Source: Amycolatopsis bartoniae (GTDB lineage Bacteria > Actinomycetota > Actinomycetes > Mycobacteriales > Pseudonocardiaceae). Taken from it: DNA of 64,000 nucleotides. The stretch spans positions 361,001 through 425,000 of the forward strand of contig NZ_JACHWH010000004.1 in the NCBI RefSeq assembly GCF_014191255.1, given 5' to 3'. The position numbers were made by a program, and so were the translations under genes. Positions within the stretch are counted from its first letter, which is position 1; every line of letters begins with the position of its first letter. The notes under the pieces were generated by a model. The model was not told the origin of the DNA. It did not search any database and saw only the letters and a program-made list of their open reading frames with translations. Positions 2,729 through 46,475 of this stretch are shown in pieces.

Positions 2729-4207
2729 ATGCAGCTGCCCGACCCCCTCTCGCTGTGGGTGGACACCGCACCGGCGCCCGAGCGCGCCGCCCGGCCGTTG
2801 CCCACCGAGGTCGACGTCGTCGTCATCGGGGCCGGCATCGCGGGACTCACCACCGCCTACGCGCTCGCCAACGCGGGCCGCTCGGTGCTCGTCGCCGAGG
2901 CCGGGCAGGTCGCGGGCGGTGTCTCCGGGCACACGACCGCCAAGGTCACCGCCCAGCACGCGCTCAAGTACGCCTCCCTCAAGTCCCGCAAGGGCCTCGC
3001 CGGCGCCCAGCAGTACGCCCGCAGCCAGCTCGACGCCATCGACTGGATAGAGCGCACCGCCGCCGAGCTGAACCTCGACTGCGACTTCGAGCGCCGCGAC
3101 AGTTTCGTCTACTCGACGAAGGACAAGCAGGTCGGCAAGCTCAAGGAAGAGGCCGACGCGGCCCAGGAGGCCGGCCTGCCCGCGAGCTTCGTGTCCGACG
3201 TCGAGCTGCCCATTACCGTCGCGGGCGCCGTCCGCGTCGCGAACCAGGCCCAGTTCCATCCGCGCAAGTGGCTGCTCGGCCTGGCCGCCGCGATCGAGGG
3301 CCTCGGCGGCACGATCATCGAGCAGGCCCGTGTGCAGCGCGTGGACGAGCGCCCCGTCCCGACGGTCCACGTCCGCGGCGACCAGGTCCGCGCCCAGGAC
3401 GTCGTGATCGCCACGCACTACCCGATCCTCGACCGCGGACTGTACTTCGCCCGGCTGGAGCCGACGCGCGACCTCGTGGTGACGGGGGAGGGCGACGCGC
3501 CGGACGGCATGTACCTCGACGCCGACACCCACCACTCCGTGCGCGGCTACGACGGGCTGCTGATCGTCGGTGGCGAGCACTACCGCACCGGCGAGCACGT
3601 GGACGTCGAGGAGCGCTACCAGCGCCTCTCGGAAGTCGCGGCGACGTTCGGCGTCAAGAAGGTCACGCACCGCTGGTCGGCGCACGACATGTCCACATTG
3701 GACGGAGTGCCGTACGTCGGCCGCTACCACCTCGGCACCCGCCACCTGTGGGTCGCCACCGGCTTCGGCCAGTGGGGGATGACCGGCGGCACCGCCGCGG
3801 GACTGTTGCTGGACAAGGAGATCCGCGGTGAAGGCAGCCCTTATGCCGGGCTGTACGACCCCAACCGCTTCGACCTGCGCTCCGGCCTGAAGCTGGCGGA
3901 GAACAACGGCCAGGTCACCAAACACCTGGTGGGCGACCACGTGCGCGCGACCGTCGGCTCCGGCGAGCTGCCCAGCGTCGGCGAGGGCAAGGTGGTCCGC
4001 CGCGGCACGCAGTTCGTCGCCACCTACCGCGCCGACGACGGCAACGTGCGCAGTGTCAACGCCCGCTGCACGCACCTGGGCTGCCTGGTGGCCTTCAACA
4101 ACGCCGAGAAAACCTGGGACTGCCCATGTCACGGATCGCGGTTCGGCACGGACGGCTCGGTCATCCAGGGTCCGGCGACCCGGGACTTGCCACCCGTCGC
4201 GGACTGA
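2729..4207 (+). CDS. FAD-dependent oxidoreductase with C-terminal Rieske domain
   Basis: 492 residues. The N-terminal two thirds are a DAO-type FAD oxidoreductase with the dinucleotide motif VVVIGAGIAGL near residue 35. The C-terminus is a Rieske 2Fe-2S domain with CTHLGC near 446 and CPCHGSRFG near 464, the two Cys/His pairs that ligate the cluster. Such fusions pass electrons between a flavin amine or alcohol dehydrogenase and an iron-sulfur centre; the substrate is unknown. The ATG at 2729 follows GGGGGCC and begins directly before the FAD domain; the much longer open frame upstream overlaps the LigD-like gene and is not used. Its last 82 bp overlap the next gene. Confidence 0.9.
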   Translation: MQLPDPLSLWVDTAPAPERAARPLPTEVDVVVIGAGIAGLTTAYALANAGRSVLVAEAGQVAGGVSGHTTAKVTAQHALKYASLKSRKGLAGAQQYARSQLDAIDWIERTAAELNLDCDFERRDSFVYSTKDKQVGKLKEEADAAQEAGLPASFVSDVELPITVAGAVRVANQAQFHPRKWLLGLAAAIEGLGGTIIEQARVQRVDERPVPTVHVRGDQVRAQDVVIATHYPILDRGLYFARLEPTRDLVVTGEGDAPDGMYLDADTHHSVRGYDGLLIVGGEHYRTGEHVDVEERYQRLSEVAATFGVKKVTHRWSAHDMSTLDGVPYVGRYHLGTRHLWVATGFGQWGMTGGTAAGLLLDKEIRGEGSPYAGLYDPNRFDLRSGLKLAENNGQVTKHLVGDHVRATVGSGELPSVGEGKVVRRGTQFVATYRADDGNVRSVNARCTHLGCLVAFNNAEKTWDCPCHGSRFGTDGSVIQGPATRDLPPVAD

Positions 4208-13551: not shown

Positions 13552-14310
13552 GTGCTGTACCGGTTGCTCAAGTGGGTGCTGCTGGGTCCGCTGCTCCGCA
13601 CGCTGTGGCCCACCAAGGTCACCGGCACGGAGCACATCCCCGAGACCGGTGGCGCGATCCTGGCCAGCAACCACCTCGCGGTCGCCGACTCGTTCTTCAT
13701 GCCGCTGCGCGTGCGCCGGCGCGTCACGTTCCCCGCGAAGTCCGAGTACTTCACCGAGAAGGGGATCAAGGGCCGGCTGAAGAAGTGGTTCTTCACCGGG
13801 GTGGGTCAGATCCCCATCGACCGTTCGGGTGGCACCGCGGCGCAGGCCGCGCTGGACACCGCGATCCGGCTGCTGCGTGAGGGCAACCTGCTGGGCATCT
13901 ACCCCGAGGGCACGCGTTCGCCGGACGGGCGGCTGCACAAGGGCAAGACCGGGGTCGCGCGCATCGCGCTGGAGGCCGGGGTGCCGGTGATCCCGGTGGC
14001 GATGATCGGCACCGACAAGGTCAACCCGATCGGCTCGAAGATGTGGCGCCCGCGCCGGCTGGAGATCCGGTTCGGCAGGCCGCTGGACTTCTCGCGGTAC
14101 GAGGGGCTGCAGGGCGACCGGTTCGTGGAGCGCTCGATCACCGACGAGATCATGTACGCGCTGATGGAGCTGTCGGGCCAGGAGTACGTCGACATCTACG
14201 CGGCGCGCGCGAAGGAGCTGATGGCGGCGGAGGCCGCGGGCGTGCGTCCCGCCGTGCCCGTGCAGACGGCGCGCGAAGCGGACCGGGTACCGGAGACGAA
14301 GGCGTCCTGA
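13552..14310 (+). CDS. 1-acyl-sn-glycerol-3-phosphate acyltransferase (PlsC family)
   Basis: 252 residues. The HX4D catalytic motif is SNHLAVADSF near residue 45, and the phosphate-binding motif is IYPEGTRSPDG near 120. VPVIPVAMIGTDKV follows as the third block. The protein adds a fatty acyl chain to lysophosphatidate at the membrane, a step in phospholipid synthesis. The N-terminal LLKWVLLGPLL is hydrophobic and probably membrane-associated. The GTG at 13552 is preceded by GGAGGGCGG. The long open frame upstream overlaps the divergent hydrolase and was not used. Confidence 0.92.
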   Translation: MLYRLLKWVLLGPLLRTLWPTKVTGTEHIPETGGAILASNHLAVADSFFMPLRVRRRVTFPAKSEYFTEKGIKGRLKKWFFTGVGQIPIDRSGGTAAQAALDTAIRLLREGNLLGIYPEGTRSPDGRLHKGKTGVARIALEAGVPVIPVAMIGTDKVNPIGSKMWRPRRLEIRFGRPLDFSRYEGLQGDRFVERSITDEIMYALMELSGQEYVDIYAARAKELMAAEAAGVRPAVPVQTAREADRVPETKAS

Positions 14311-14312
14311 CC

Positions 14313-14318
14313 TAGGGT
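14313..14318 (+). promoter_or_regulatory. Leaderless -10 element TAGGGT
   Basis: TAGGGT ends 6 nt before the GTG at 14325. The preceding gene stops only at 14310, so this gives the exonuclease its own start. Confidence 0.5.
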
Positions 14319-14324
14319 GCTTCG

Positions 14325-14813
14325 GTGCGATTCTTCTACGACACCGAGTTCATCGAGGACGGCGTGACGATCGATTTGGTGTCGATCGGTGTCGTGGACG
14401 AGCGGGGCCGGGAGTTCTACGCGGTTTCCACGGACTTCGACCCGGGCAGGGCCGGGCAGTGGGTGCGCGAGAACGTGCTGCCGAAGCTCCCGTCGCCCGC
14501 CGACCCGGCGTGGCGCAGCCGGGAGAAGATCCGCGCCGACCTGCTGGACTTCTTCGGCAAACCGCCGGGTGGGATCGAGCTGTGGGCCTGGTACGCGGCC
14601 TACGACCACGTCGCGCTGGCGCAGCTGTGGGGCCCGATGCCCGCCCTGCCGCGGCAGCTGCCGCGCTTCACGCGTGACCTGAGGCAACGCTGGGAGGACG
14701 CGGGCAAGCCCAAGCTGCCCGCCCCACCCGCCGACGCGCACGACGCCCTCGCCGACGCGCGCTTCAACCTGGAGCGGTGGCGGATCATCGAAGAGGTCCG
14801 GACGCGCCGCTGA
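14325..14813 (+). CDS. Polyadenylate-specific 3'-exoribonuclease AS type
   Basis: 162 residues of the DEDDh exonuclease fold. Catalytic acidic residues are in FFYDTEFIEDG near residue 6, in WYAAYDHVAL near 90, and HDALADARFN near 146 with the final His/Asp pair. Mycobacterial Rv2179c is a characterised relative that degrades RNA 3' ends with a preference for adenine tracts. It is cytosolic. A strong hairpin terminates it against the convergent DAHP synthase gene. Confidence 0.9.
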   Translation: MRFFYDTEFIEDGVTIDLVSIGVVDERGREFYAVSTDFDPGRAGQWVRENVLPKLPSPADPAWRSREKIRADLLDFFGKPPGGIELWAWYAAYDHVALAQLWGPMPALPRQLPRFTRDLRQRWEDAGKPKLPAPPADAHDALADARFNLERWRIIEEVRTRR

Positions 14814-14815
14814 GC

Positions 14816-14844
14816 GGTGGACCCGGGACGCGCCCGGGTCCACC
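14816..14844. terminator. Bidirectional terminator hairpin
   Basis: GGTGGACCCGGG pairs perfectly with CCCGGGTCCACC around a 5-nt loop. There is no T-tract, as is common in actinobacteria. It lies between stops at 14813 and 14851. Confidence 0.8.
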
Positions 14845-14850
14845 TCGCGC

Positions 14851-15933
14851 TCAGCGCCGCGCCACCGCGCCCGCCAGCTCGTCCAGCAGCTCCGCCGTGG
14901 TGGGCCAGTCGAGGCAGGCGTCGGTGATGGACTGCCCGTAGGTCAGCTCCGCCGCCTGCCCCAGCACCAGGTCCTGCCGCCCGGCCTCCAGGAAGCTCTC
15001 CAGCATCACGCCGACGATCCCGCGTTCCCCGGCACCGATGCGCACCGCCAGCTCCCGCACGACCTCCGCCTGCCGCACGTGGTCCTTGCCGCTGTTGCCG
15101 TGCGAAGCGTCGACGATCACGCGCTCCGGCAACCCGCCACGGCGCAGCCGCGCGAGGGTGTCGGCCACGGTCTCCGCGTCGTAGTTGGGGCCGCCCGCGT
15201 GGCCGCGCAGGATCACGTGGCAGTCCGGGTTCCCCGCGGTCGTGACCAGCGCCGCCAGCCCGTCCGCGTTGATGCCGGGGAACACGTGGCTCGCCGCCGC
15301 CGCGCGGGTCGCGTCCACCGCCACCTGCACGTCGCCCTCGGTGGAGTTCTTGATGCCCACCGGCATGGACAGCGCGCTGCACAGCTGCCGGTGCACCTGG
15401 CTCGCCGCCGTCCGCGCGCCGATCGAGCCCCAGCTGACGGTGTCGGCGATGAACTGCGGCGTGATCGGGTCCAGGAACTCGCACCCCACCGGCAGCCCGA
15501 GCGCGGAGATGTCGAGCAGGAGCCTGCGGGCCAGCCGCAGGCCCTGGTTGACCGCGTAGCTGCCGTCCAGCCCAGGGTCGTTGATCAGGCCCTTCCAGCC
15601 CAGCGTGGTGCGCGGCTTCTCGAAGTACACCCGCATGATCACGTGCAGCCGGTCGCGCAGCGCGCCGGCTTTCTCGGCGAGCCGGAGCGCGTAGTCGACG
15701 GCCGCTTCGGGGTCGTGCACCGAGCACGGGCCCACGACGACGAGCAGTCGGTCGTCGGTCCCGTTGAGGATGTCGACGGTGGCGGCCCGGCCTTCGGCGA
15801 CGGTCTTCGCGACGGCGGCGTCCATCGGGTGCTCCTGGCGGAGCAGGGCGGGGGGAATCAGCGGGCTGATGCCGACGGTGCGCTGGTCGTCGAGCGACGC
15901 CAGGGTTTCCGCGGGGCCTGCGGCGAGCTGCAT
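14851..15933 (-). CDS. 3-deoxy-7-phosphoheptulonate (DAHP) synthase, class I
   Basis: 360 residues, matching AroF/G/H-type enzymes that condense PEP with erythrose 4-phosphate as the first step of aromatic amino acid synthesis. Motifs in order: VVVGPCSVHDPE, FEKPRTTLGWKG, GCEFLDPITPQ, GIKNSTEGDVQVAVDA and VDASHGNSGKDH with the metal-binding Cys/His/Glu/Asp set. The ATG at 15933 gives MQLAAGPAETLAS; the open frame continues another 56 codons but reads like leader sequence. The gene diverges from phosphofructokinase across a 259-bp region holding a shared imperfect palindrome. Confidence 0.94.
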   Translation of the reverse strand: MQLAAGPAETLASLDDQRTVGISPLIPPALLRQEHPMDAAVAKTVAEGRAATVDILNGTDDRLLVVVGPCSVHDPEAAVDYALRLAEKAGALRDRLHVIMRVYFEKPRTTLGWKGLINDPGLDGSYAVNQGLRLARRLLLDISALGLPVGCEFLDPITPQFIADTVSWGSIGARTAASQVHRQLCSALSMPVGIKNSTEGDVQVAVDATRAAAASHVFPGINADGLAALVTTAGNPDCHVILRGHAGGPNYDAETVADTLARLRRGGLPERVIVDASHGNSGKDHVRQAEVVRELAVRIGAGERGIVGVMLESFLEAGRQDLVLGQAAELTYGQSITDACLDWPTTAELLDELAGAVARR

Positions 15934-24804: not shown

Positions 24805-27800
24805 ATGCGTCTCGTGCCCCGTCTAGGTTCCGGTATCCCCTTGGTCGCGCGTGTCGACGAGATGCGCCGCCTCCGCGCCGGCTTCACCCGCGCCGAGCGT
24901 GGTGAGGCCGGCGCGATCCTGCTCGCGGGTGACGCGGGCGTGGGCAAGACGAGGTTGCTGGCCGAGCTGGCCGAGTTCGCGGGCAGCCGCGGGGCGCTCG
25001 TGCTGACGGGCCGCTGCCTCGACGTGCGCGAGGGCGGTCTGCCGTACCTGCCGTTCGCGGAGGCGCTGGGGCCGCTCGCGACGGCGGACGACGCGGCGGT
25101 CGTCGAAGCGGTGCGCATCCGGCCCGCGCTCTCGCGGCTGCTGCCGCTCGCGCAGCCGGGGCCCGTGTCCGACGTCGAGTACGCGCCGATGACGTCCGAG
25201 CACGAGGGGCCGTACCGGCCGCGCCCGGAGCAGGACCTGGGGCAGCTGCAGCTGTTCGACGCGGTGCTGGGGGTGCTCACCGAGATCGCGGAGCACCGCC
25301 CGGTGCTGCTGGTGCTGGAGGACCTGCACTGGGCGGACGGTTCGACGCGGAACCTGTTGTCGTTCTTGTCTTCCCGGCTCCGCGCGCAGCGGCTGCTGGT
25401 GGTGGCGAGCTACCGCGAGGAGGACGTGCACCGGCGGCATCCGCTGCGCGGCCTGCTCGTCGAGCTGGTCCGGTTGCCCGCCGTCACGCAGATCGAGCTG
25501 CACCCGCTCAAGGAGGCCGACGCGCGGGCCTTCGTCGAGGCGCTCGCGGACGGCCCGCTGACGCCCGAGGTGATCACCAGCGTCGTGGAGCGGTCGGAGG
25601 GCAACCCGTTCTTCGCCGAGGAGCTGCTCGCGTCGTGTTCGGACTGCACCGACATCCCCGCCGGGCTCGCCGAGGTGCTGCTGGCGCGGCTGGAGAGGCT
25701 GTCGCCGGACGCGCGGCGGGTGCTGCGGGCGATCGCGGTCGCGGGGGAGTCGGTGGCGCACGCGGCGCTCGCGGAGGTGTCAGGGCTCGGGGAGGACCAG
25801 CTCGACGAGGCACTGCGGGAGGCGGTGCAGCACCACGTGCTGGTGGTCGAGAAGGGGGCGTACGCGTTCCGGCACGCGTTGCTGCAGGAAGCGGTGTACG
25901 GGGATCTGCTGCCGGGCGAGCGCACCCGCATGCACGCTGCCTACGCGGCGCGCATCCGGCGCACCCCGCAGGGCCGCGGGCACGACGCGAAGCTGGCGTA
26001 CCACAGCCTCCAGAGCCGGGACTTCGCCACGGCGCTGCCCGCGCTGCTGTCGGCCGCGGACGAAGCGGAGCGGCTGGGTGCGCCCGGGGCCGCGCTGCGT
26101 CACGTCGAGCAGGCGCTGGAGATCTGGGACGCGGTGCCGCCCGCGGCGCGGCCGCCGGAGGTCGACGAGCTGCAGCTGCTGAAGGAGGCTTCGTACTTTG
26201 CCGGCACCTCGGGTGAGCCGGAGCGGGCGATCGCGTACGCGCGCTCGGCCGTGCAGGAGCTGCGCGAGGACACCGACGTCGAGCTGGCGACCAAGACGTG
26301 GCGGCGGCTGGCCGAGGCGCTGATGAACGTCGAGGGCCGCCTCGACGAGGCGCAGGAGGCGATCGACAGGGCGTGGGACCTGATCGACGGAGCCCGGCCG
26401 AGCCGCACCACCAGTTGGGTGCTCGCCACCAGGGCGGCGATCCTGCGCGGTACCGACCACCACTCCGACGCGCGCTTCTGCGCGCAGGTCGCGGTCGCCG
26501 AGGCCCAGACCGTCGGCGCCGCGGGTGCGGAGGCGTCAGCCCTGATCACGCTCGGCGCGCTCGCGGACAACGTCGGCGACTTCGAGGAGGCGCGAGCCCG
26601 GCTGCGGGACGCCGAACAGAAGGCGCGCGAGGCCGGCTCGCCGGACGTCGAGCTGCGGGCGTTGTGCTTCCTCGGGTTCAGCTACGAGGACCAGGGCGAG
26701 ATCGAGCCGGCGGTCGAGGCGTTCGGGCGCGGCATCAAGCGAGCCGAGGAGACGGGGCTGACGTGGAGCGCCTACGGCCTGGAGCAGCGGGCCCGGCACC
26801 TGCGGCTGCGGTACCAGAGCGGCGACTGGCCCGCGGAGTCCGTCACCGCGGTGCCGGCGCGGGGTGTGTCCAGCGTGCTCACTGCCCGGATGACCGCGGA
26901 GTGGCTGCCGATCGTCGTGGCGCGCGGCCGGTTCACGGCGGCGGGCAAGCTGCTGGCCGAGCTGCGCTCGCACTGGCGCGCGGAGCCGCTCACGGCCATC
27001 GCCGCCGGTGGGGCGGGTGCCGAGCTGGCGTACTGGCAGGGCGACCACGAGGCGGTGGTGAAGCGAGCGGTTGAGGCGATGGACTTCCTCCGTGCGCTCG
27101 ACCAGGGCTACCGGCTGAGCGAGATCCGGCTCAGCGCCGGTGCCCTCAGCGGTGCCGCCGCGAAGGCGGCCGCGGCCCGGCTCCGCGGTGACGAGGAGGC
27201 GGTGCGGGCGGCGGCCGAGGTGGGGGAGGAGCTGGTCGAGCGGGCACGCTCCGCGGCGGCGAAGGGCAGGCCGCGGTCGGGCATCCTCGGACCGGAGGGG
27301 CGGGCGTGGCTGGCCCGCGCGGAGGCGGCGGCGACGTGTGTGCGGGGAGCGCCGGATCCGGAGCTGTGGGCGCGGGCGGTGGCCGAGTTCGGGTACGGGC
27401 AGGTGTACGAGCAGGCCATCTGCCGGTGGCAGCACGCGGAAGCGCTGCTCGCGGTGAGCGAGCCCGGGCGCGCGGCGGACGAGCTGGCGAAGGCACACAA
27501 GACGGCGGAGCACCTGAGGGCCCTGCCCCTGCGCGACGCGGTCCGCGACCTCGCGCGCCGCGCGCGGATCGACCTGCCGGGCGTGGTGGAGGCGGCGCAG
27601 CCTCAGCGGGACACGGTGGATCCGCTGACGGAGCGGGAGCGGGCGGTGCTGGAGCGGGTGGCGCTGGGCCGCACCAACAGGCAGGTGGGGGAGGAGCTGT
27701 ACATCAGTGAGAAGACGGTGAGCGTGCACCTGTCCCGCCTGATGGCGAAACTGGGCGCAACCCGCCGCGCGGAAGCGGTGGCCCTCGCGTACGACCGCGG

Positions 27801-27843
27801 CCTGCTGGCTCGCCCCACCCCCCAGTCCCCCGCCCACACCTAG
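24805..27843 (+). CDS. LAL-type LuxR transcriptional regulator with AAA ATPase domain
   Basis: 1012 residues, the size expected for large ATP-binding regulators of the LuxR family. An N-terminal STAND/AAA ATPase has Walker A GDAGVGKTRL near residue 45 and Walker B LLVLEDLHWAD near 170. The middle 400 residues are TPR-like helical repeats with repeated Ala/Glu-rich pairs (for example EASALITLGALADNVGDFEE). The C-terminus (about 930-1000) is the LuxR helix-turn-helix, LTERERAVLERVALGRTN with SEKTVSVHLSRLMAKL. Such proteins are pathway-specific or maltose-type activators triggered by a ligand in the TPR region. The target is unknown; no biosynthetic cluster adjoins it. Confidence 0.93.
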   Translation: MRLVPRLGSGIPLVARVDEMRRLRAGFTRAERGEAGAILLAGDAGVGKTRLLAELAEFAGSRGALVLTGRCLDVREGGLPYLPFAEALGPLATADDAAVVEAVRIRPALSRLLPLAQPGPVSDVEYAPMTSEHEGPYRPRPEQDLGQLQLFDAVLGVLTEIAEHRPVLLVLEDLHWADGSTRNLLSFLSSRLRAQRLLVVASYREEDVHRRHPLRGLLVELVRLPAVTQIELHPLKEADARAFVEALADGPLTPEVITSVVERSEGNPFFAEELLASCSDCTDIPAGLAEVLLARLERLSPDARRVLRAIAVAGESVAHAALAEVSGLGEDQLDEALREAVQHHVLVVEKGAYAFRHALLQEAVYGDLLPGERTRMHAAYAARIRRTPQGRGHDAKLAYHSLQSRDFATALPALLSAADEAERLGAPGAALRHVEQALEIWDAVPPAARPPEVDELQLLKEASYFAGTSGEPERAIAYARSAVQELREDTDVELATKTWRRLAEALMNVEGRLDEAQEAIDRAWDLIDGARPSRTTSWVLATRAAILRGTDHHSDARFCAQVAVAEAQTVGAAGAEASALITLGALADNVGDFEEARARLRDAEQKAREAGSPDVELRALCFLGFSYEDQGEIEPAVEAFGRGIKRAEETGLTWSAYGLEQRARHLRLRYQSGDWPAESVTAVPARGVSSVLTARMTAEWLPIVVARGRFTAAGKLLAELRSHWRAEPLTAIAAGGAGAELAYWQGDHEAVVKRAVEAMDFLRALDQGYRLSEIRLSAGALSGAAAKAAAARLRGDEEAVRAAAEVGEELVERARSAAAKGRPRSGILGPEGRAWLARAEAAATCVRGAPDPELWARAVAEFGYGQVYEQAICRWQHAEALLAVSEPGRAADELAKAHKTAEHLRALPLRDAVRDLARRARIDLPGVVEAAQPQRDTVDPLTERERAVLERVALGRTNRQVGEELYISEKTVSVHLSRLMAKLGATRRAEAVALAYDRGLLARPTPQSPAHT

Positions 27844-27847
27844 TCGG

Positions 27848-27886
27848 GCCCGGTAGCCGCCGGATGGGGTGCGGCGGCCACCGGGC
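27848..27886. terminator. Terminator after LuxR gene
   Basis: GCCCGGT/ACCGGGC and GCCGCC/GGCGGC form a two-part stem around an 11-nt loop, starting 5 bp after the stop. The hairpin also faces the repeat array from the other side. Confidence 0.75.
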
Positions 27887-28127
27887 TCACCCAGATTTCC
27901 TTAAGGGACAACGGTTTCCGCGAACACGAACTCATCTTCCGCAGCGAAGAGCCGAGCCCGCGCGCAGCGAACCCGCGGGCGCGCCGCGATCCGCCGACCG
28001 TCCCGCACACTGCCGACCAGAGCCACTACCACCCACCCGGCCGGCTTCACCCCTTTTTTGGACCGCGCCGCCGATCCGCCGCAGCCCAACGGCCAAGCCA
28101 CGGGCTAAAAGCATGGGTGACGCAACG

Positions 28128-29231
28128 CGCAGCCGCTACAGCCACAACCCGCGCCCCTCTCCTCCACCCGGCCACTCGGCGATCCGGCAACCCGCGCCGC
28201 CGTCCAGCGCCTGCACTCCAGCAGCCGCGGCCCGATGGCCATCCCACGGGGCGCCACCACGCATGGCGGCTGCCACCGGAACCCGCGCCACCTGGTTCAC
28301 CCCGCCACTCGGGGACGTAGCGAGCCGCGCCGCTGTCAGCGAATCCGCCCCAACACCCGCAGTTCCGATGGTCATCCCGCAGGCGGCATGACATGTGGCG
28401 CCGTTGCCGGTATCCGCGCCACCTGGTTCACCCCGCCACTCGGCGGCGTGGCGAACCGCGCCGCTGTCAGCGAATCCGCCCCAGCCGCTGCGGCCCGGTG
28501 GTCGTCCTGTGGGTGGCATGACATGTGGCGTCGCCGCCGGAACCCGCGCTCGCCAGGTTCCCCCCCGCTCGGCGGCGTAGCGAACCGCGCCGCTGTCAGC
28601 GAATCCGCCCCAGCCGCCGCGGCCCGGTGGTCGTCCTGCGGGCGGCATGACACGCGGCGCCGCCGCCGGTACCCGCCACCGCGTTCACCACGCTGCTCGG
28701 CAATGCGCTGGATTGCGCCGCTGTCAGCGGGTGCGCCCAAGCAGCCGCAGCCCGGGGGCATCCTGCGGGCGGCATGACACCTGGCGCCGTTGCCGGTATC
28801 CGCGCCACCTGGTTTACCCCCCGCTCGGCGGCGTGGCGAACCGCGCCGCTGTCAGTGAATCGCCCCAACACGCGCAGCCCCGATGGTCATCCCGCAGGCG
28901 GCATGACACGTGGCGCCGCCGCCGGAACCCGCGCCACCGCGTTCACCACGCTGCTCGGCAATGCGGCGAACCGCGGCGCTGTCAGCGGATGCGCCCAGCA
29001 GGCGCAGCCCGATGGTCATCCCGCAGGCAGCACCACACGTGGCACCGCCGCCGGAACCCCCGCCCCACCACGTTCACCCACACCCGACGACGCGCCAAAC
29101 CGCCCGCTGTCAGCGAATCCGCCCCCGCCGCCGCCCGATGGCGTCCCGCGGGCGGCACCACGCGCGCCGGCCCCGCAGCCGGGGCCCGTGCCCCACCCCG
29201 CCACCCGCCGGCGTGGCGGCCCGCGCCGCCG
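28128..29231. repeat. Tandem array of about 128-bp units containing copies of the gabD2-like 3' end
   Basis: Eight units start with GCTGTCAGCG or variants at 28198, 28332, 28463, 28592, 28720, 28848, 28978 and 29106; the next equivalent point, 29228, is inside the end of the dehydrogenase gene. Spacings are 122-134 bp. A decayed half-unit precedes 28198 and traces may reach back to about 28020. On the minus strand each unit holds a degenerate copy of the dehydrogenase's last about 45 bp; the unit at 28978 still reads GMTIGLRLLG against GMTVGLRLLG in the gene, and several others end RIR-stop in a shifted frame. About 80 bp of non-coding sequence completes each unit. The array fills the 1.35 kb between two convergent genes, with no credible gene inside. 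Confidence 0.8.
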
Positions 29232-30836
29232 TTACCGGATCCGCCCCAGCAGCCGCAGTCCGACCGTCATTCCGCGGGCCCACAGCTTCGGCGGCACCAC
29301 CCGCGGCGGCCGCAACCGCAGGCCGCGCTGGGCCGCGATCGACTGGGACTCCGTGTACTTGAGCAGTCCCTCGGCGCCGTTGCGGCGTCCGTAGCCCGAC
29401 TCCTTCATGCCGCCCATCGGCAGTGCGACGGACCCGAACGTGGCCGCGTAGCCCTCGTTGACGTTCACCGTCCCCGCCTTGATTCGCGACGCCACCGCCC
29501 ACCCGGCCGCGACATTGCCCGTCCACACGCTCGCGTTCAAGCCGAAAGCCGTGTCGTTGGCGCGCTCGATCGCGTCCTCCACATCGGTGTAGCCGTAGAT
29601 CGACACCACCGGCCCGAACGTCTCGCCCGCGAACAGGTCCGCCGTCTCGGGGACATCCGTCAGCACCGTCGGCTCGTAGAACAGCGGCCCCAGATCCGGC
29701 CGCGGCCGCCCGCCGGTCAGCACCGTCGCGCCCTTCGCCCGCGCGTCCTCCACGTGCGCCGAGATCGTCGCCAGCTGACTCTCCGACGTCAGCGACCCCA
29801 TCTCCGCGCCGTACCCCAGCTCGGCGCCCAGCCGCAACGCCTTCGTCTTCGCCACGAACGCCCGCGTGAACTCCTCGCGCACGCTCTCGTGCACGTAGAT
29901 CCGCTCGACCGACACGCACAGCTGCCCCGCCGACGAGAAACACGCCGACACCGCACCCGCGGCGGCCTTCGCGATCGGCGCGTCGGGCAGCACGATCATC
30001 GGGTTCTTGCCGCCGAGCTCCAGCGAGTACCCGGTCAGCCGCGACGCCACCTTCGCCGCCAGGTCCTTGCCCGTCGGCGTGGAACCGGTGAAGCACAGGT
30101 AGTCCGACTCCTCCACCAGCGCGTCGCCGATCCGCGAACCGCGTCCGAGCACGATCCGCCACACCCCGGCGGGCAGCCCGGCCTCCTCGGCGAGCTCGTG
30201 CAGCCACAACGCGGACAACGCCGTCTGGTTGTCCGGCTTCTGCACCACGGCGTTGCCCGCCACCAGCGCGGGCAGGACGTCCATCGAGGTCAGCGCGAGC
30301 GGATAGTTCCACGGCGAGATCACCCCGACGACACCCTTCGGGTGATGCAGCACCCGGGCCTTCGTCAGCCCCGGGATCACCCCGGCCGCGCGCCGCGAAC
30401 CGAGGATCCGCGCGCTGTGCTTGCCGTAGTACCCGGCGACCAGCGCGGTGGCGCTCACCTCGTCGAACGCGTCGAGCCGCGCCTTGCCCGCTTCGAGCTG
30501 GACGAGGTCGAGGATCTCCTCCTGGCGATCGAGGATCAGCCGGTGCAGGCGGGTCAGGACCTGCTGCCGCTCGCGGACCGGCCGCGCCGCCCAGAGCCGC
30601 TGCGCTTCGCGGGCCTCACCGAACACCTTCCGCACGTCGGCGTCGGTCGCCTGCGGCAGGGTCGCGGTGACGAGCCCGGTGAACGGCGCGGTGATCTCGA
30701 CGGGCGCCGAGTCCTGGCCGCCGGCCGCGCGGCGGGCCAGCTGGGCGGCCCGCGCCGCCGACGGCGCCCCGACGACCCCACCCACGGTGGTCGGCTTGCT
30801 GGCTTCGTGCCCGGTGGTCGCGGCAGTGCTCGTCAT
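29232..30836 (-). CDS. Succinate-semialdehyde dehydrogenase (GabD2-like)
   Basis: 534 residues of the NAD(P)-dependent aldehyde dehydrogenase superfamily. PWNYPLAL near residue 172 binds the cofactor. LELGGKNPMI near 268 carries the general-base Glu, and SAGQLCVSVER near 305 the nucleophilic Cys. The N-terminal 45-residue extension and overall sequence resemble mycobacterial GabD2 (Rv1731), which oxidises succinic semialdehyde to succinate. The ATG at 30836 follows GGAGGGGCC. Its promoter carries a perfect palindrome, so it is probably repressed by a TetR-type protein. Its 3' end is the source of the downstream repeat array. Confidence 0.92.
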   Translation of the reverse strand: MTSTAATTGHEASKPTTVGGVVGAPSAARAAQLARRAAGGQDSAPVEITAPFTGLVTATLPQATDADVRKVFGEAREAQRLWAARPVRERQQVLTRLHRLILDRQEEILDLVQLEAGKARLDAFDEVSATALVAGYYGKHSARILGSRRAAGVIPGLTKARVLHHPKGVVGVISPWNYPLALTSMDVLPALVAGNAVVQKPDNQTALSALWLHELAEEAGLPAGVWRIVLGRGSRIGDALVEESDYLCFTGSTPTGKDLAAKVASRLTGYSLELGGKNPMIVLPDAPIAKAAAGAVSACFSSAGQLCVSVERIYVHESVREEFTRAFVAKTKALRLGAELGYGAEMGSLTSESQLATISAHVEDARAKGATVLTGGRPRPDLGPLFYEPTVLTDVPETADLFAGETFGPVVSIYGYTDVEDAIERANDTAFGLNASVWTGNVAAGWAVASRIKAGTVNVNEGYAATFGSVALPMGGMKESGYGRRNGAEGLLKYTESQSIAAQRGLRLRPPRVVPPKLWARGMTVGLRLLGRIR

Positions 30837-41957: not shown

Positions 41958-44900
41958 GTGACCGTTGCAGGACAAGGCCAAGTGCCGGTGGGACAGCTAC
42001 TGGGCCAGCAACCGCGGCGACCAGCCAAGTGGCGCGCGATCACGAGATGGCGTGACTGGAGCATCGCGGGCAAGCTGGCCGCCGTCACGCTGGTCCCCAT
42101 CATCATCGCGCTGGTGCTCGGTGGCATCACCATCAGCAACCAGGTGCAGCGGTCCACCGACTTCGAACGGATCGACCGCCTGGTCGTGCTCAGCAGCGAC
42201 GTGCGGGGGCTCGTCGACGCGTTGCAGCAGGAGCGCACGCGCACCGCGGCCCTGCTCAGCCAGGGCACGGTCGGCAGCTCGCCCGAGCTGGACGCCGCCC
42301 GCGCCGCCACCGACACCGCGCTCAAGCCGCTGAGCACCGACACCACGCGCGTCACCCAGGTGGACAGCGCGGTATCCGCCCCCGGCGCCGCGAGCAACAA
42401 CGCGCTCGCCCGGCTCGGCGAGGTGCGCCAGCAGGTCGCCGCGGGCCAGCTCGACTCCGTGCAGGCGCTCGACGCGTACTCCGCGATGACCACCGCGCTG
42501 CTGAGCCTCGACACCACGCTCGTCGCGGGCATGGGCGACCCGTCGATCAGCGGCACCGCCAACGCGCTGCACGACCTGCAGGTCGCCAAGGAGGAGGTCT
42601 CGACCTCCCAGGTGCTGGTCACCTACGGCATCGCGCGCGGCAACCTCACCCCCACCCAGCTCAACCAGCTGCGCACGGCGGAGGTCCGCCTCGCCGACCG
42701 GCTGGAGGACTTCCGCGCCGCCGCGACCGGGACGCAGGGCCAGGACTTCGACCGCACCGTCACCGGGCAGGACTTCGACACCCGCAGCCGGCTGGTCGCC
42801 AGCGTGCTGGCCGCGCAGGGCGTCACCGCGAGCGACGCGCTCGACGCGATCTCCGGTGAGCAGTGGACCGCGGTGTCCAACGCGGTCGTCGACTCGCTGC
42901 GCGCGGTCAGCACCCGCCTCGGCGACCAGGTCGCCAGCACGTCGGAAGACCTCGTCGACACCTCCGGTACCGACGCGGGCCTGCTCGCCGTGCTGCTGTT
43001 CGCCGCGCTGGTCGTCACCGCCGCGGTGGTCTTCCTGATCACCCGCCAGCTGCTGCGCTCGCTGCGGCTGCTGCGCACCAGCGCCCTCGACGTCGCCGAC
43101 AAGCAGCTGCCCGCGGCGGTGCGGAACATCCAGGAGGGCCGCGAGCAGAGCGCCGAGGTCACGCCGGTTCGGGTCGGCACCGCCGACGAGATCGGCCAGG
43201 TGGCCAAGGCGTTCGACGCGGTGCACAGCCAGGCGCTGCGCCTGGCGATCGAGCAGGCCGCGATGCGGACCGGCTACTCGAGCGTGTTCGTCAACCTCTC
43301 CCGCCGCAGCCAGAGCCTCGTGCAGCGGCAGCTGCAGCTCATCGAGCGGCTGGAGCGCGACGAGGAGGACGCCGACCAGCTGGCCACCCTGTTCCAGCTC
43401 GACCACCTCGCCACCCGCATGCGGCGCAACAACGAGAACCTGATGGTCCTCTCCGGCGCGGAGCCGGGCCGCCGCTCCGGTCAGCCGATCACCATCGCCG
43501 ACGTGCTGCGTGCCGCGGTGTCGGAGATCGAGCAGTACCAGCGCGTCGTGGTGCAGCCGCCGCCCGACGGCCGGATCGTCGGCTACGCGGCCAGCGACCT
43601 GATGCGCCTGATCGCGGAGCTGCTCGACAACGCCACCGCGTTCTCGGCGCCCGAGACGCAGGTGACCGTGGCGACCCGCGTGGCGGACAACGGCGCGCTG
43701 GTCGTCGACATCATGGACAAGGGCATCGGCATGAACGAGGCCGAGGTCGCCGAGGCGAACGCGCGGCTGACCGAGGCCGCGACCGTCGACCTCGCCACCT
43801 CGCGCCGCATGGGCCTGTTCGTCGTCGGGCGCCTCGCCGGGCGTCACCGCATCGGGGTCACACTGCACGGTGGCAAGGACATCGTCGGCGTGCGGGCCAC
43901 CGTCACGGTGCCCGCGGACCTGGTGATGGGCCTGCCGCAGGCCGTGCCCGCGCCCGCCCCGGAGTTCCCGCAGGACCCGGCGCTGCCGCGGCGGCGCACC
44001 GTCAACGGCGCGGGCCGCGCGGGCGCGCTGACCAGCCTGGCCGGGACGGCGGGCACGCTCGGCGACGGCGCGGCCGCGCCGGAACCGTGGACGCAGAACG
44101 GGCACACCGGCCTGCTGCCACCGCGGCCGTCGGACGTCGAGGTCTCGGGCACCGCGTTGTTCAGCCCGATCCAGCCGGACGAGCAGGACGTGCCCGCGCA
44201 GCCGGAGTCGCCGGAGGACCTGCCGGGCGGCGCGCTGCCCGCGGGCAAGGCGCTGTTCGAGGCGAACACGAGCTCCGGTGCGCTGACGGAGTGGTGGAGC
44301 GCGGCGGCGGCCGAGCCCGCGCCGCCGCCCCCGCCGCCTTCGCCGCGCGAGACGACGCCGATCTTCGACGAGACGCTGTCCGCGTGGTTCCGGAGTGACC
44401 GCCCGGCGCCTGCTCCTGCGGCTGGGGCTTCGGGGAAGGCCGCGGAGGCTACTGCTTCGGCCGCGTCGCCCGCGGAAGCGGAGGAGACCGCCGAGGACAC
44501 GAAGGCGAGCACCGGCTGGGACTTCGCGGTCGACGAGAACTTCCGCGCGGTGCAGGCGGTGTCGCAGGCGGAGCCGACGAGCTTCACCGAGGCCGGGCTG
44601 CCGCGGCGTCGTCGTGGCGAGCAGCTCATGCCGGGCAGCGCGACGTCGGCCGAGCCGGAGAGCACGGAGAGCGCGCCCGCGTCGTCGGTGCTGCCGACCC
44701 GCGATCCGGCCGACATCCGGGGCCGGTTGAGCAGCTTCCAGCGGGGCATCAGCCGCGCCCGGCACGCTGCCCGCGACGACAGCGCGACCCAGGCTGGTGG
44801 GCCGGAGCGGCCCGCGGGTGCCTCGGGGCTGTCCCAGGGGTCGGCGGGTGCTGGCGCTTCGGGGCTGACCCAGGGACCAGCGGGTGCCGGTGCGTCGGGC

Positions 44901-46475
44901 CTGCCCCAGCGCAGCCCGGCGGAGCAGTCCTGGCCGGACGCGGACCAGGCGGCCGCGGCGGAGGCGAACCCGCTGCCGCAGCGCCGTCCGGCCGGGGAGT
45001 CGCGGCGGCCGGAGGGTGGCCTGCCGCAACGCCAGCCGGGTGGAGAAGGTGCGCTACCCCGGCGCCAGCCGGGTGGGAGCGCGGCCTTCGCGTTGCCGCA
45101 GCCGAGCGGCGAAAGCCTTTTCTCGACCGGGGGGCGGGGCGGCGAGAGCACGTCCCGGCAGTCTGGCGGGGAGGATGCCTTGTCGCAGCGGCAGTCTCGT
45201 GGGGAGAGCGCCCTCTCGAAGCGGCAGCCCGGCGGGGAAGGTGCGCCGGAGCGGCAGTCTGGTGGGGAAGGCGCCCTGCCGCAGCGGCAGTCCGGTGAGG
45301 ACGGTGCACGCCGGTCGGAGGGTGGGGACGGCTCGCTTTCCCAACGGCGACCGGCGGGTGAGGGCGACCTCGCGCGGCGTGGACAGGAGGCGGGAGAAAG
45401 CGCTTCCTCGGACGGCGAGCACGGCGAAGAAAGCGCTCTCCCGCGGCGGCAGCGGAGGGAAAGCGCTTTCTCGCCGGGGAACGAGGAGGAGCTGCCCCAG
45501 CGCCAGGGGGGCGAGGGTGGCCTTCCGCGCCGCAAGCCGACCGCGGGAAGCGACCTCCCGCAGCAGGGCGACGAGAGCGGTCTGCCTCGGCGGCGGGGCA
45601 GCGAGGCTGGCCTTCCGCAGCGGCAGGGTAGCGAGAGCGGCCTGGCCCAGGAGGGCGACGAGCAGGGCTTGCCCCAGCGGCAGGGCGGCGAGAGCGGTCT
45701 GCCCCAGCGGCAGGGCGCGGAAAGTGGCCTGTCCGAGCAGGGCTTGCCCCAGCGAGGCGGCGACACCGGTCTGCCTCGGCGGCGGGGCGGCGAGAGCGGC
45801 CTGCCTCAGGAGAGCACCGACACCGGCCTGCCCCAGCGGCGTGGCGGCGAGAGCGGCCTCCCGCAGCGCCAGACCGGCGCCACCGGCCTTCCGCAGCGGC
45901 AGGGCAGCGACACCGGCCTTCCGCGCCGCCAGCCGACCGGCGTCACCGGCGAGACTCCGCTGCCCCGCAGGCAGCCCCCGCCGGACCGGACCGCAACACC
46001 CGCCGCCGGAGCAGGAAACCCGCCGCGGCGGCACGTGAACGAGCCCCCTCGGCGGCTGGAGCCGCCGGAGGAGCCCGCCGAGACCTCCGGGGCCTTCCTG
46101 TGGCGCAAGCCCCAGGAGTTCCCCGAGGACAGCCAGGCCCCGCTGCCCCGACGGCAGCAGGGCGAACCCCAACCGGAGGCCGTCGGCGCGGAGCCGGCTT
46201 GGTCCTTCGCCACCGACGAGAGCTGGCGGACCGTGGAAGCGGTTTCCCAGTCCGCTCCGGTGAGCTACACGGCGGCCGGGCTCCCGCGCCGCCGGCGTGG
46301 CGAGCAGCTGCTCCCGGGCAGTGCGTCTTCCGCGGGGGTGCCGGGTGCCCGCACCCAGCGCGACCCGCAGGATGTGCGCGGCAGGCTGAACAGTTTCCAG
46401 CAAGGTGTCCGGCGTGGACGGCACCGCACGGCTCAGCCCGCCGAGTCTGATCACGAAACGATGGAGGGTGAATGA
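41958..46475 (+). CDS. cvnA: Conservon histidine kinase-like sensor CvnA with giant repeat tail
   Basis: 1505 residues; relatives are commonly 700-1000 (my estimate). Order: TM helix near 43-58 (VTLVPIIIALVLGGITI), an extracellular nitrate/nitrite-sensor-like helical domain to about 335, TM helix 340-358, HAMP, then a kinase-like domain with LFQLDHLATRMRRNN near 480 and ATPase boxes ELLDNATAFS near 553 and MDKGIGMN near 590. From about 660 the chain is disordered and Pro/Gly/Glu-rich. Residues about 955-1343 repeat LPQRQ/LPRR-type units. The conserved C-terminal module occurs twice, near 855-935 and 1413-1495. In streptomycetes Cvn proteins form a membrane complex resembling a G-protein-coupled system. 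GTG 41958 follows GACAGGGAG. Confidence 0.9.
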   Translation: MTVAGQGQVPVGQLLGQQPRRPAKWRAITRWRDWSIAGKLAAVTLVPIIIALVLGGITISNQVQRSTDFERIDRLVVLSSDVRGLVDALQQERTRTAALLSQGTVGSSPELDAARAATDTALKPLSTDTTRVTQVDSAVSAPGAASNNALARLGEVRQQVAAGQLDSVQALDAYSAMTTALLSLDTTLVAGMGDPSISGTANALHDLQVAKEEVSTSQVLVTYGIARGNLTPTQLNQLRTAEVRLADRLEDFRAAATGTQGQDFDRTVTGQDFDTRSRLVASVLAAQGVTASDALDAISGEQWTAVSNAVVDSLRAVSTRLGDQVASTSEDLVDTSGTDAGLLAVLLFAALVVTAAVVFLITRQLLRSLRLLRTSALDVADKQLPAAVRNIQEGREQSAEVTPVRVGTADEIGQVAKAFDAVHSQALRLAIEQAAMRTGYSSVFVNLSRRSQSLVQRQLQLIERLERDEEDADQLATLFQLDHLATRMRRNNENLMVLSGAEPGRRSGQPITIADVLRAAVSEIEQYQRVVVQPPPDGRIVGYAASDLMRLIAELLDNATAFSAPETQVTVATRVADNGALVVDIMDKGIGMNEAEVAEANARLTEAATVDLATSRRMGLFVVGRLAGRHRIGVTLHGGKDIVGVRATVTVPADLVMGLPQAVPAPAPEFPQDPALPRRRTVNGAGRAGALTSLAGTAGTLGDGAAAPEPWTQNGHTGLLPPRPSDVEVSGTALFSPIQPDEQDVPAQPESPEDLPGGALPAGKALFEANTSSGALTEWWSAAAAEPAPPPPPPSPRETTPIFDETLSAWFRSDRPAPAPAAGASGKAAEATASAASPAEAEETAEDTKASTGWDFAVDENFRAVQAVSQAEPTSFTEAGLPRRRRGEQLMPGSATSAEPESTESAPASSVLPTRDPADIRGRLSSFQRGISRARHAARDDSATQAGGPERPAGASGLSQGSAGAGASGLTQGPAGAGASGLPQRSPAEQSWPDADQAAAAEANPLPQRRPAGESRRPEGGLPQRQPGGEGALPRRQPGGSAAFALPQPSGESLFSTGGRGGESTSRQSGGEDALSQRQSRGESALSKRQPGGEGAPERQSGGEGALPQRQSGEDGARRSEGGDGSLSQRRPAGEGDLARRGQEAGESASSDGEHGEESALPRRQRRESAFSPGNEEELPQRQGGEGGLPRRKPTAGSDLPQQGDESGLPRRRGSEAGLPQRQGSESGLAQEGDEQGLPQRQGGESGLPQRQGAESGLSEQGLPQRGGDTGLPRRRGGESGLPQESTDTGLPQRRGGESGLPQRQTGATGLPQRQGSDTGLPRRQPTGVTGETPLPRRQPPPDRTATPAAGAGNPPRRHVNEPPRRLEPPEEPAETSGAFLWRKPQEFPEDSQAPLPRRQQGEPQPEAVGAEPAWSFATDESWRTVEAVSQSAPVSYTAAGLPRRRRGEQLLPGSASSAGVPGARTQRDPQDVRGRLNSFQQGVRRGRHRTAQPAESDHETMEGE
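44820..45985 (+). repeat. Short-period coding repeat inside cvnA
   Basis: About 390 codons built from irregular units of roughly 9-13 residues around GLPQRQ or GLPRR followed by GGES. The central part (about 45,480-45,930) is the most regular. Units are not identical at DNA level, so this is old or diverging expansion rather than a fresh microsatellite. Confidence 0.85.

Follow-up and report, generated by a model that had tools for sequence, protein, structure and literature searches.

The window analysed here, a 64,000-nucleotide stretch of the genome of Amycolatopsis bartoniae, contains a pair of convergent genes with a tandem array between them. The first gene encodes a LuxR-family regulator of 1012 residues with an AAA ATPase domain (24805–27843, + strand; Pfam AAA_16 and GerE). 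The second encodes a GabD2-like succinic semialdehyde dehydrogenase of 534 residues (29232–30836, − strand), which matches NCBIfam NF006916 with 772 bits against a cut-off of 521. TRF reports the array at 28192–29279, with a period of 129 bp, 8.5 copies, 75% matches and a score of 930, and it gives overlapping rows with periods of 256 and 385. By TRF, unit alignment and a sequence profile, the array consists of eight head-to-tail units of 122–131 bp (28201–29227) on the − strand, in the orientation of the dehydrogenase gene. This confirms the eight consecutive units described in an earlier, sequence-only reading of this DNA. The array proper begins near 28201, however, and not at 28128 as was then thought, and it does not fill the whole gap between the two genes. 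The spacer beside the LuxR gene (27844–28200) is non-repetitive in the profile search, except for a doubtful remnant at 28074–28197 (E = 0.022, where the next best match elsewhere in the window has E = 0.11).

On the + strand the units are anchored at 28332, 28463, 28592, 28720, 28848, 28978 and 29106, and the stop region of the gene itself lies at 29228. The outermost unit, U0 (28201–28331), is decayed, and its left edge was placed by hand. The profile used for the window search was built from the seven units from 28332 on, and it recovers U0 at 28205–28330 with an E value of 2.2e-17. The other units are U1 (28332–28462), U2 (28463–28591), U3 (28592–28719), U4 (28720–28847), U5 (28848–28977), U6 (28978–29105) and U7 (29106–29227), the last of which adjoins the dehydrogenase gene; all of them are on the − strand. 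U7 is 122 bp long, and the remaining units measure 128, 128, 128, 129, 130, 131 and 131 bp. Pairwise identity is 68–88% among the units from 28332 on and 68–76% between U0 and the others. In the alignment, U1, U2 and U3 end in RIR-stop, as had been noticed from the sequence, and U7 does likewise. U6 encodes GMTIGLRLLG, also as described before, and has lost one base ahead of its RIR-stop.

The array is continuous with the final ~86 coding bases of the dehydrogenase gene. This real 3′ end of the gene (29231–29328, − strand) matches the unit profile with an E value of 5.9e-8. It scores 28.5 bits, and the best of 1000 dinucleotide shuffles reaches 5.7 bits, so that the comparison of units with the gene end, which the sequence-only reading had named among its checks, gives a similarity far above random. 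The last 45 bp of the gene are also over-represented in the gap, where none of 150 shuffles scores as high. Each unit, read in the dehydrogenase orientation, consists of ~86 bp that resemble the gene end, followed by ~45 bp that resemble the sequence directly after the gene; the division first proposed, about 45 bp of gene and 80 bp of non-coding sequence, is wrong. Inside the ~86 bp copied part, the units have a gap of ~13 bp relative to the gene. Their similarity to the gene is 0.69–0.83 in the gene-like part and 0.40–0.50 in the remainder. In having a head-to-tail unit of ~10–200 bp (period 129, 8.5 copies), the array fits a VNTR or minisatellite; its unit also crosses the stop of the intact gene next to it, as expected of an array seeded by a gene end.

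The C-terminal motif GMTxGxRxLxRIR is common to most close relatives, whose dehydrogenase genes end at the same residues. The array itself is absent from the 18 other species of the genus that were searched at the DNA level: matches of 24–89 bp only were found in 10 of these genomes and none in the other 8. The dehydrogenase gene is present in 17 of the 18. Because the relatives share the gene end without the array, the dehydrogenase gene end is judged to be the source of the units, which supports the earlier proposal that a gene end was duplicated and that the copies then expanded and drifted.

The units and the gene beside them share GGG-CGG, encoding the GR of LLGR, and an R is found at the position of this G in all seven of the close relatives that were aligned. 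This is suggestive of a duplication younger than the split from the sister species G011. The dating is not firm, because G at this position recurs in more distant members of the genus (L037 and others). Several units have GGG, ACC and CGC-TGA, like most close relatives, where the gene itself now has GGA, ACG and CGG-TAA. As the units retain the codons of the relatives, the dehydrogenase gene apparently went on changing, largely synonymously, after the copies arose.

Identity between units is nearly flat with distance along the array, going from 0.77 to 0.75. The closest pairs are U1 and U4 (88% identical) and U3 and U5 (86%), and U0 is among the least similar units. The flat identity, the likeness within these two pairs and the TRF periods of 256 and 385 point to repeated unequal exchange rather than a single series of duplications. 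Between-unit identity is higher in the gene-like part (0.795) than in the rest of the unit (0.722), a difference that is not predicted by plain decay.

The convergent LuxR/dehydrogenase pair is found in all 31 distinct relative loci in which both genes were identified, five duplicate loci having been left out. The gap between the genes measures 3–141 bp in 20 of these loci, 151–412 bp in 7 and 644–1393 bp in 4. The sister species G011 has a repeat-rich gap of 854 bp at the same place, made of other sequence, and the gaps of other species contain repeats of 18, 21 or 58 bp. Since G011 and other species carry different repeats at the same place, the LuxR/dehydrogenase gap seems to have been opened and refilled repeatedly. 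The end of the LuxR gene was not found in the gap of the window, where 110 of 150 shuffles score as high, and it was therefore rejected as a second component of the unit. No relative shows the dehydrogenase/LuxR junction copied in the way seen at the other loci described below.

Two further observations were made on this gap in relatives. The gap that follows the dehydrogenase gene contains, in L060, L066 and to some extent L133, 21-bp direct repeats and then inverted 21-bp repeats that could form long hairpin arms. Matched against the dehydrogenase end in reverse complement, the G011 gap (L131) scores 85, compared with sense shuffles only (150, maximum 82), and it possibly contains inverted copies.

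The structure of the array had been regarded as singular. This proved wrong, as several unrelated arrays of the same build are present elsewhere in the genome. Two of them, unrelated to it in sequence, have a period of 123: the one at a ROK-family gene has 4.3 copies, and the one at an Fpg-family gene has 2.4. A shared period of about 125 bp, considered in view of the values of 129 here and 123 at the ROK and Fpg genes, was dropped because copy distances spread over 73–166 bp. The ROK gene end is accompanied by copies of itself in G017 as well and weakly in G005, and none were found in G011. Downstream of the ROK gene, G000 and G017 have only a 23-bp match in common, so the copies in the two genomes seem to have arisen separately.

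At three other junctions, sequence comparison suggests that a tandem duplication of the junction separated abutting or overlapping genes. The first lies between a histidine kinase gene and an epimerase gene. Among 13 relatives, the distance between these genes is −8 to 4 bp in seven, 19 bp in one and 245–636 bp in four; the partner was not found in the remaining one. Here the gap is 427 bp and is filled with copies of both gene ends (0 of 150 shuffles as high for each), and in the units the kinase stop is still followed, after two bases, by the epimerase stop. The 440-bp gap of G003 contains copies of the G003 kinase end (0 of 150 shuffles); the evidence is weaker in G001 and G002 (2 of 150 each). 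No kinase-end copies were found in the G006 gap (90 of 150 shuffles as high), and the epimerase end was not found in the gaps of G003, G001, G002 and G006 (119, 78, 82 and 101 of 150 shuffles, respectively). In the gap downstream of the histidine kinase gene at L264 and L272, 0 and 2 of 150 shuffles, respectively, equal the score of the kinase end, from which these other species appear to have made a spacer of their own.

The second junction lies between a SLAC1-family gene and its neighbor. These genes overlap by 22–29 bp in 8 of 10 relatives; another relative has the locus at a contig end, and in G011 the genes are 131 bp apart, with a match only to residue 200. Here they are 133 bp apart, and the junction is present twice. 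At the third junction, an ATP-grasp/CoA-binding gene and an AMP-binding enzyme gene have a 17-bp overlap in G011 and G012, where the last few residues of the partner do not align; the remaining 16 of 18 genomes have other gaps (9–1199 bp) or no partner. In the present genome the two genes are 128 bp apart with two copies. Set against these three junctions, the dehydrogenase/LuxR pair has short gaps (3–141 bp) in 20 of the 31 relative loci, and the LuxR end was not found in its gap.

Recurrence was counted in a genome sample of 2,056,745 bases (26.5%), with genes from our own codon-usage caller and with loci L317–L337 excluded from all counts. A tandem copy was counted as stop-crossing if it extended at least 12 bp on each side, lay within 500 bp and scored at least 50 bits. 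This rule was set after a looser list was known, which contained 20 of 1713 3′ ends and 5 of 1710 starts. Thirteen 3′ ends in the looser list crossed the stop within 500 bp, and one of them, C4a|91, was dropped because it reached 6 bp past the stop. Under the rule, stop-crossing tandem copies are present at 12 of 1714 3′ ends, compared with 0 of 1712 starts (Fisher p = 4.8e-4). That no start qualifies depends on the limits chosen, which two loci just miss: at C2_224 a start-crossing copy lies at 533 bp, beyond the 500-bp limit, and at L152 an 83-bp duplication reaches ~8 bp into the gene start, under the 12-bp limit.

The nearest passing copies lie 73–166 bp away in 11 of the 12 cases. The exception is the window array, where the nearest passing copy is at 251 bp and a nearer copy falls below the cut. 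A Pfam or NCBIfam family was identified in 11 of the 12 host genes, the Fpg host gene having been tested as a 109-residue part. The remaining host, L207:9158-9481, gave no match in Pfam and is possibly not a real gene.

A convergent neighbor is present at 10 of the 12 stop-crossing ends (two of these hits share one gap), compared with 595 of 1804 genes overall. When gaps of at least 50 bp are considered, stop-crossing copies are found in 9 of 113 convergent and 2 of 549 co-directional gaps (p = 3.8e-6); for all junctions, the corresponding values are 9 of 298 and 2 of 1214 (p = 1.5e-5). TRF arrays are present in 15 of 145 convergent, 23 of 715 co-directional and 5 of 295 divergent gaps, with 75.7, 34.7 and 13.7 array bases per kb, respectively. 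The gene caller was retrained for the stop-crossing and gap tests, which shifts the gap counts slightly; the earlier gene calls gave TRF arrays in 15 of 143 convergent, 24 of 712 co-directional and 4 of 293 divergent gaps.

As a control, ten draws of 1714 random positions gave 8–18 matches each, with a mean of 12.8, of which 5–13 were intergenic. Random positions thus show tandem copies as often as 3′ ends, so stop codons are not hot as such, and the idea of a hot spot at stop codons was rejected. The non-random signal is the type of gap: arrays concentrate in convergent gaps.

The same counts were made in small samples (200–400 kb) of G003, G011, Nonomuraea and Nocardia. Nonomuraea gerenzanensis, which belongs to another order, has TRF arrays in 11 of 36 convergent, 14 of 123 co-directional and 4 of 51 divergent gaps. 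Its array bases per kb are 62.6, 33.6 and 65.8, respectively, and the convergent bias is therefore seen by gap count but not by bases per kb. Five of 273 3′ ends in Nonomuraea are crossed, with the nearest copies 18–29 bp away, which is a shorter kind of repeat. In G011, arrays are present in 2 of 21 convergent, 3 of 55 co-directional and 2 of 38 divergent gaps. No convergent bias was seen in the small samples of Nocardia farcinica (0 of 17, 1 of 68 and 1 of 28, in the same order) and G003 (0 of 10, 0 of 72 and 0 of 30). Start-crossing matches number 1 of 176 in G011, 1 of 274 in Nonomuraea, 1 of 145 in Nocardia and 0 of 182 in G003. No stop-crossing 3′ ends were found in the tested relative loci, neither in 100 from Pseudonocardiaceae nor in 288 from other taxa.

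The array in the window is most probably a degenerate minisatellite that arose from the duplicated end of the dehydrogenase gene, and one case of a recurrent duplication in convergent gaps. A stretch reaching from ~86 bp inside the gene to ~45 bp past its stop would have been duplicated head to tail. Unequal exchange or slippage would then have multiplied the copies and made them partly uniform, and the copies would have decayed, whereas selection on the protein would have preserved the gene's own end. Slippage or unequal exchange would be the likely molecular step. Tandem duplications would pile up in convergent (3′–3′) gaps, where they disturb neither a promoter nor a start codon, and selection would remove the events that do disturb starts and promoters. 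Where a breakpoint falls inside a gene, the unit would take along the end of that gene; where the two genes abut or overlap, the event would leave one copy of the junction beside each gene and so separate them. We read the window array as an old, long example that took up the end of the dehydrogenase gene but not that of the LuxR gene. It probably has no strong function, and it looks like the natural making of spacer DNA rather than a device.

Alternatively, the array could be kept as an insulator that lengthens the gap, absorbs read-through, or offers repeated processing or Rho-dependent stop sites. Such a role would fit the observation that convergent gaps are the ones most often bearing arrays, both here and, by gap count, in Nonomuraea, and that this convergent gap is occupied by different repeats in other species. 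The convergent bias, however, is explained without any function by the lack of promoters in convergent gaps. Several results make insulation unlikely. None of the eight units folds markedly better than shuffled sequence (z from −1.45 to +0.78); U7, which contains a 7-bp perfect inverted repeat (GGCCCCG/CGGGGCC), has a z of −0.61. The covariation term of the consensus structure is unfavorable (+1.11), with double changes in 3 of 35 pairs. No terminator-like or sigma-70-like sites were found in 27600–29500, and no Rfam family was found in the window. The gap is merely 3–141 bp long in 20 of the 31 distinct relative loci, the divergent gaps of Nonomuraea equal the convergent ones in array bases (65.8 and 62.6 per kb), and in Nocardia 0 of 17 convergent gaps bear an array. 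A structured 3′ UTR RNA or an array of terminators likewise receives no support from folding energy, covariation, the terminator scan or Rfam, and the RNA device that the sequence-only reading had offered as an option finds none in the folding and covariation results.

It is very improbable that the array is coding, or that it is a former, longer C-terminal repeat of the dehydrogenase or of an antisense protein. Long open frames do span parts of the array on both strands, but these are expected at 75% G+C. The unit lengths of 122–131 bp do not hold a frame, the RIR-stop taken over from the gene is present in four units, and the dehydrogenases of close relatives end at the same residues. That the array is an active or inactive mobile or phage-derived repeat that landed beside the gene is barely credible: only the repeat structure points to it, no related sequence was found elsewhere in the 7.76-Mb genome or in 72,556 plasmid records, the matches in the genus are limited to 24–89 bp, and the unit holds the end of the neighboring gene itself.

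Three named classes of repeat were also rejected. IS, MITE and REP-like repeats do not apply because no copies are found at unrelated places in the genome, the genus or the plasmids. The MIRU family proper was set aside on the dispersal criterion only, as no second locus was found in the genome, and a CRISPR array because the whole unit repeats, at 68–88% identity among the units from 28332 on.

Beyond the minisatellite at this locus, duplication of convergent junctions may be a regular process, as yet without a name, by which abutting or overlapping convergent genes are separated in Amycolatopsis and perhaps in other high-GC actinobacteria, with the extra copies serving as an expanding and decaying spacer; the window array would then be an old, much-expanded case involving one gene end. 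We offer this generalization tentatively, as a possibility that falls somewhat short of being probable. The origin of bacterial spacers and the loss of overlaps are usually told in terms of point mutations and the loss or gain of stop codons. Repeats of the neighbors' own ends would be fossils of the junction and would allow the origin of a spacer to be dated. Should the process prove general, many actinobacterial "intergenic repeats" would need no functional explanation, and convergent junctions would allow species-specific VNTR markers to be predicted.

VNTRs are well known in actinobacteria. In the open-licence literature we found no account of gene-end-seeded arrays in bacteria, nor of tandem duplication separating overlapping convergent genes, although this is weak evidence of absence. 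In the refactored phage T7.1, overlaps were reportedly undone by duplicating the shared stretch. As in the junction copies described here, each gene thereby gets its own copy of the shared end, but T7.1 is engineered and not natural.

A natural parallel is VNTR3239 (ETR-F), located between rnc and fpg1 in the Mycobacterium tuberculosis complex (PMC2734929). The junction measures 279–358 bp in the complex; outside it, the junction is 1–20 bp in 10 of 11 listed mycobacteria and 54 bp in M. leprae (PMC2734929). Like the array here, VNTR3239 consists of lineage-specific tandem repeats near gene ends that have grown in a junction (PMC2734929). In contrast to the convergent pair here, its genes are co-directional, and an effect on expression is reported for it (PMC2734929). 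Its repeat begins 40 bp beyond the rnc stop and, in the part of PMC2734929 on which we draw, is not described as a copy of a gene end, whereas the unit here contains one. It is made of exact copies of 37-bp and smaller elements, compared with 68–88% identity here (PMC2734929).

The tandem repeats of archaeal Borg elements arise independently, and their first units may lie within gene ends (PMC9879509). In both respects, independent origin and a beginning within gene ends, they are like the array here, but they are perfect, A-rich copies on extrachromosomal elements (PMC9879509). The relevant part of that paper describes no tie of the repeats to convergent junctions or to the separation of overlapping genes (PMC9879509). 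For the formation and loss of gene overlaps, the sections of PMC3843671 and PMC2478687 used here name point mutation, frameshift, loss of a stop codon and misannotation, and the word "duplication" is absent from the main texts of both papers. As compared with these accounts, tandem duplication of the junction appears to be responsible at the three loci described above.

Repeats of other kinds were noted in the course of this work. At L152 (positions 3565–3741; G000:C2), about two identical 83-bp copies lie between co-directional genes and are seemingly very recent. An 876-bp convergent gap downstream of a GntR/FCD regulator gene (L212, positions 14211–15086; G000:C2) contains a 21-bp repeat in ~17 copies and, after these, stretches that resemble its inverted counterpart. 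Within the window, overlapping tandem repeats with periods of 30–87 bp are found at 45156–45950, in the 1505-residue + strand frame at 41958–46475, which has NIT and histidine-kinase ATPase domains; these C-terminal repeats are coding, unlike the array.
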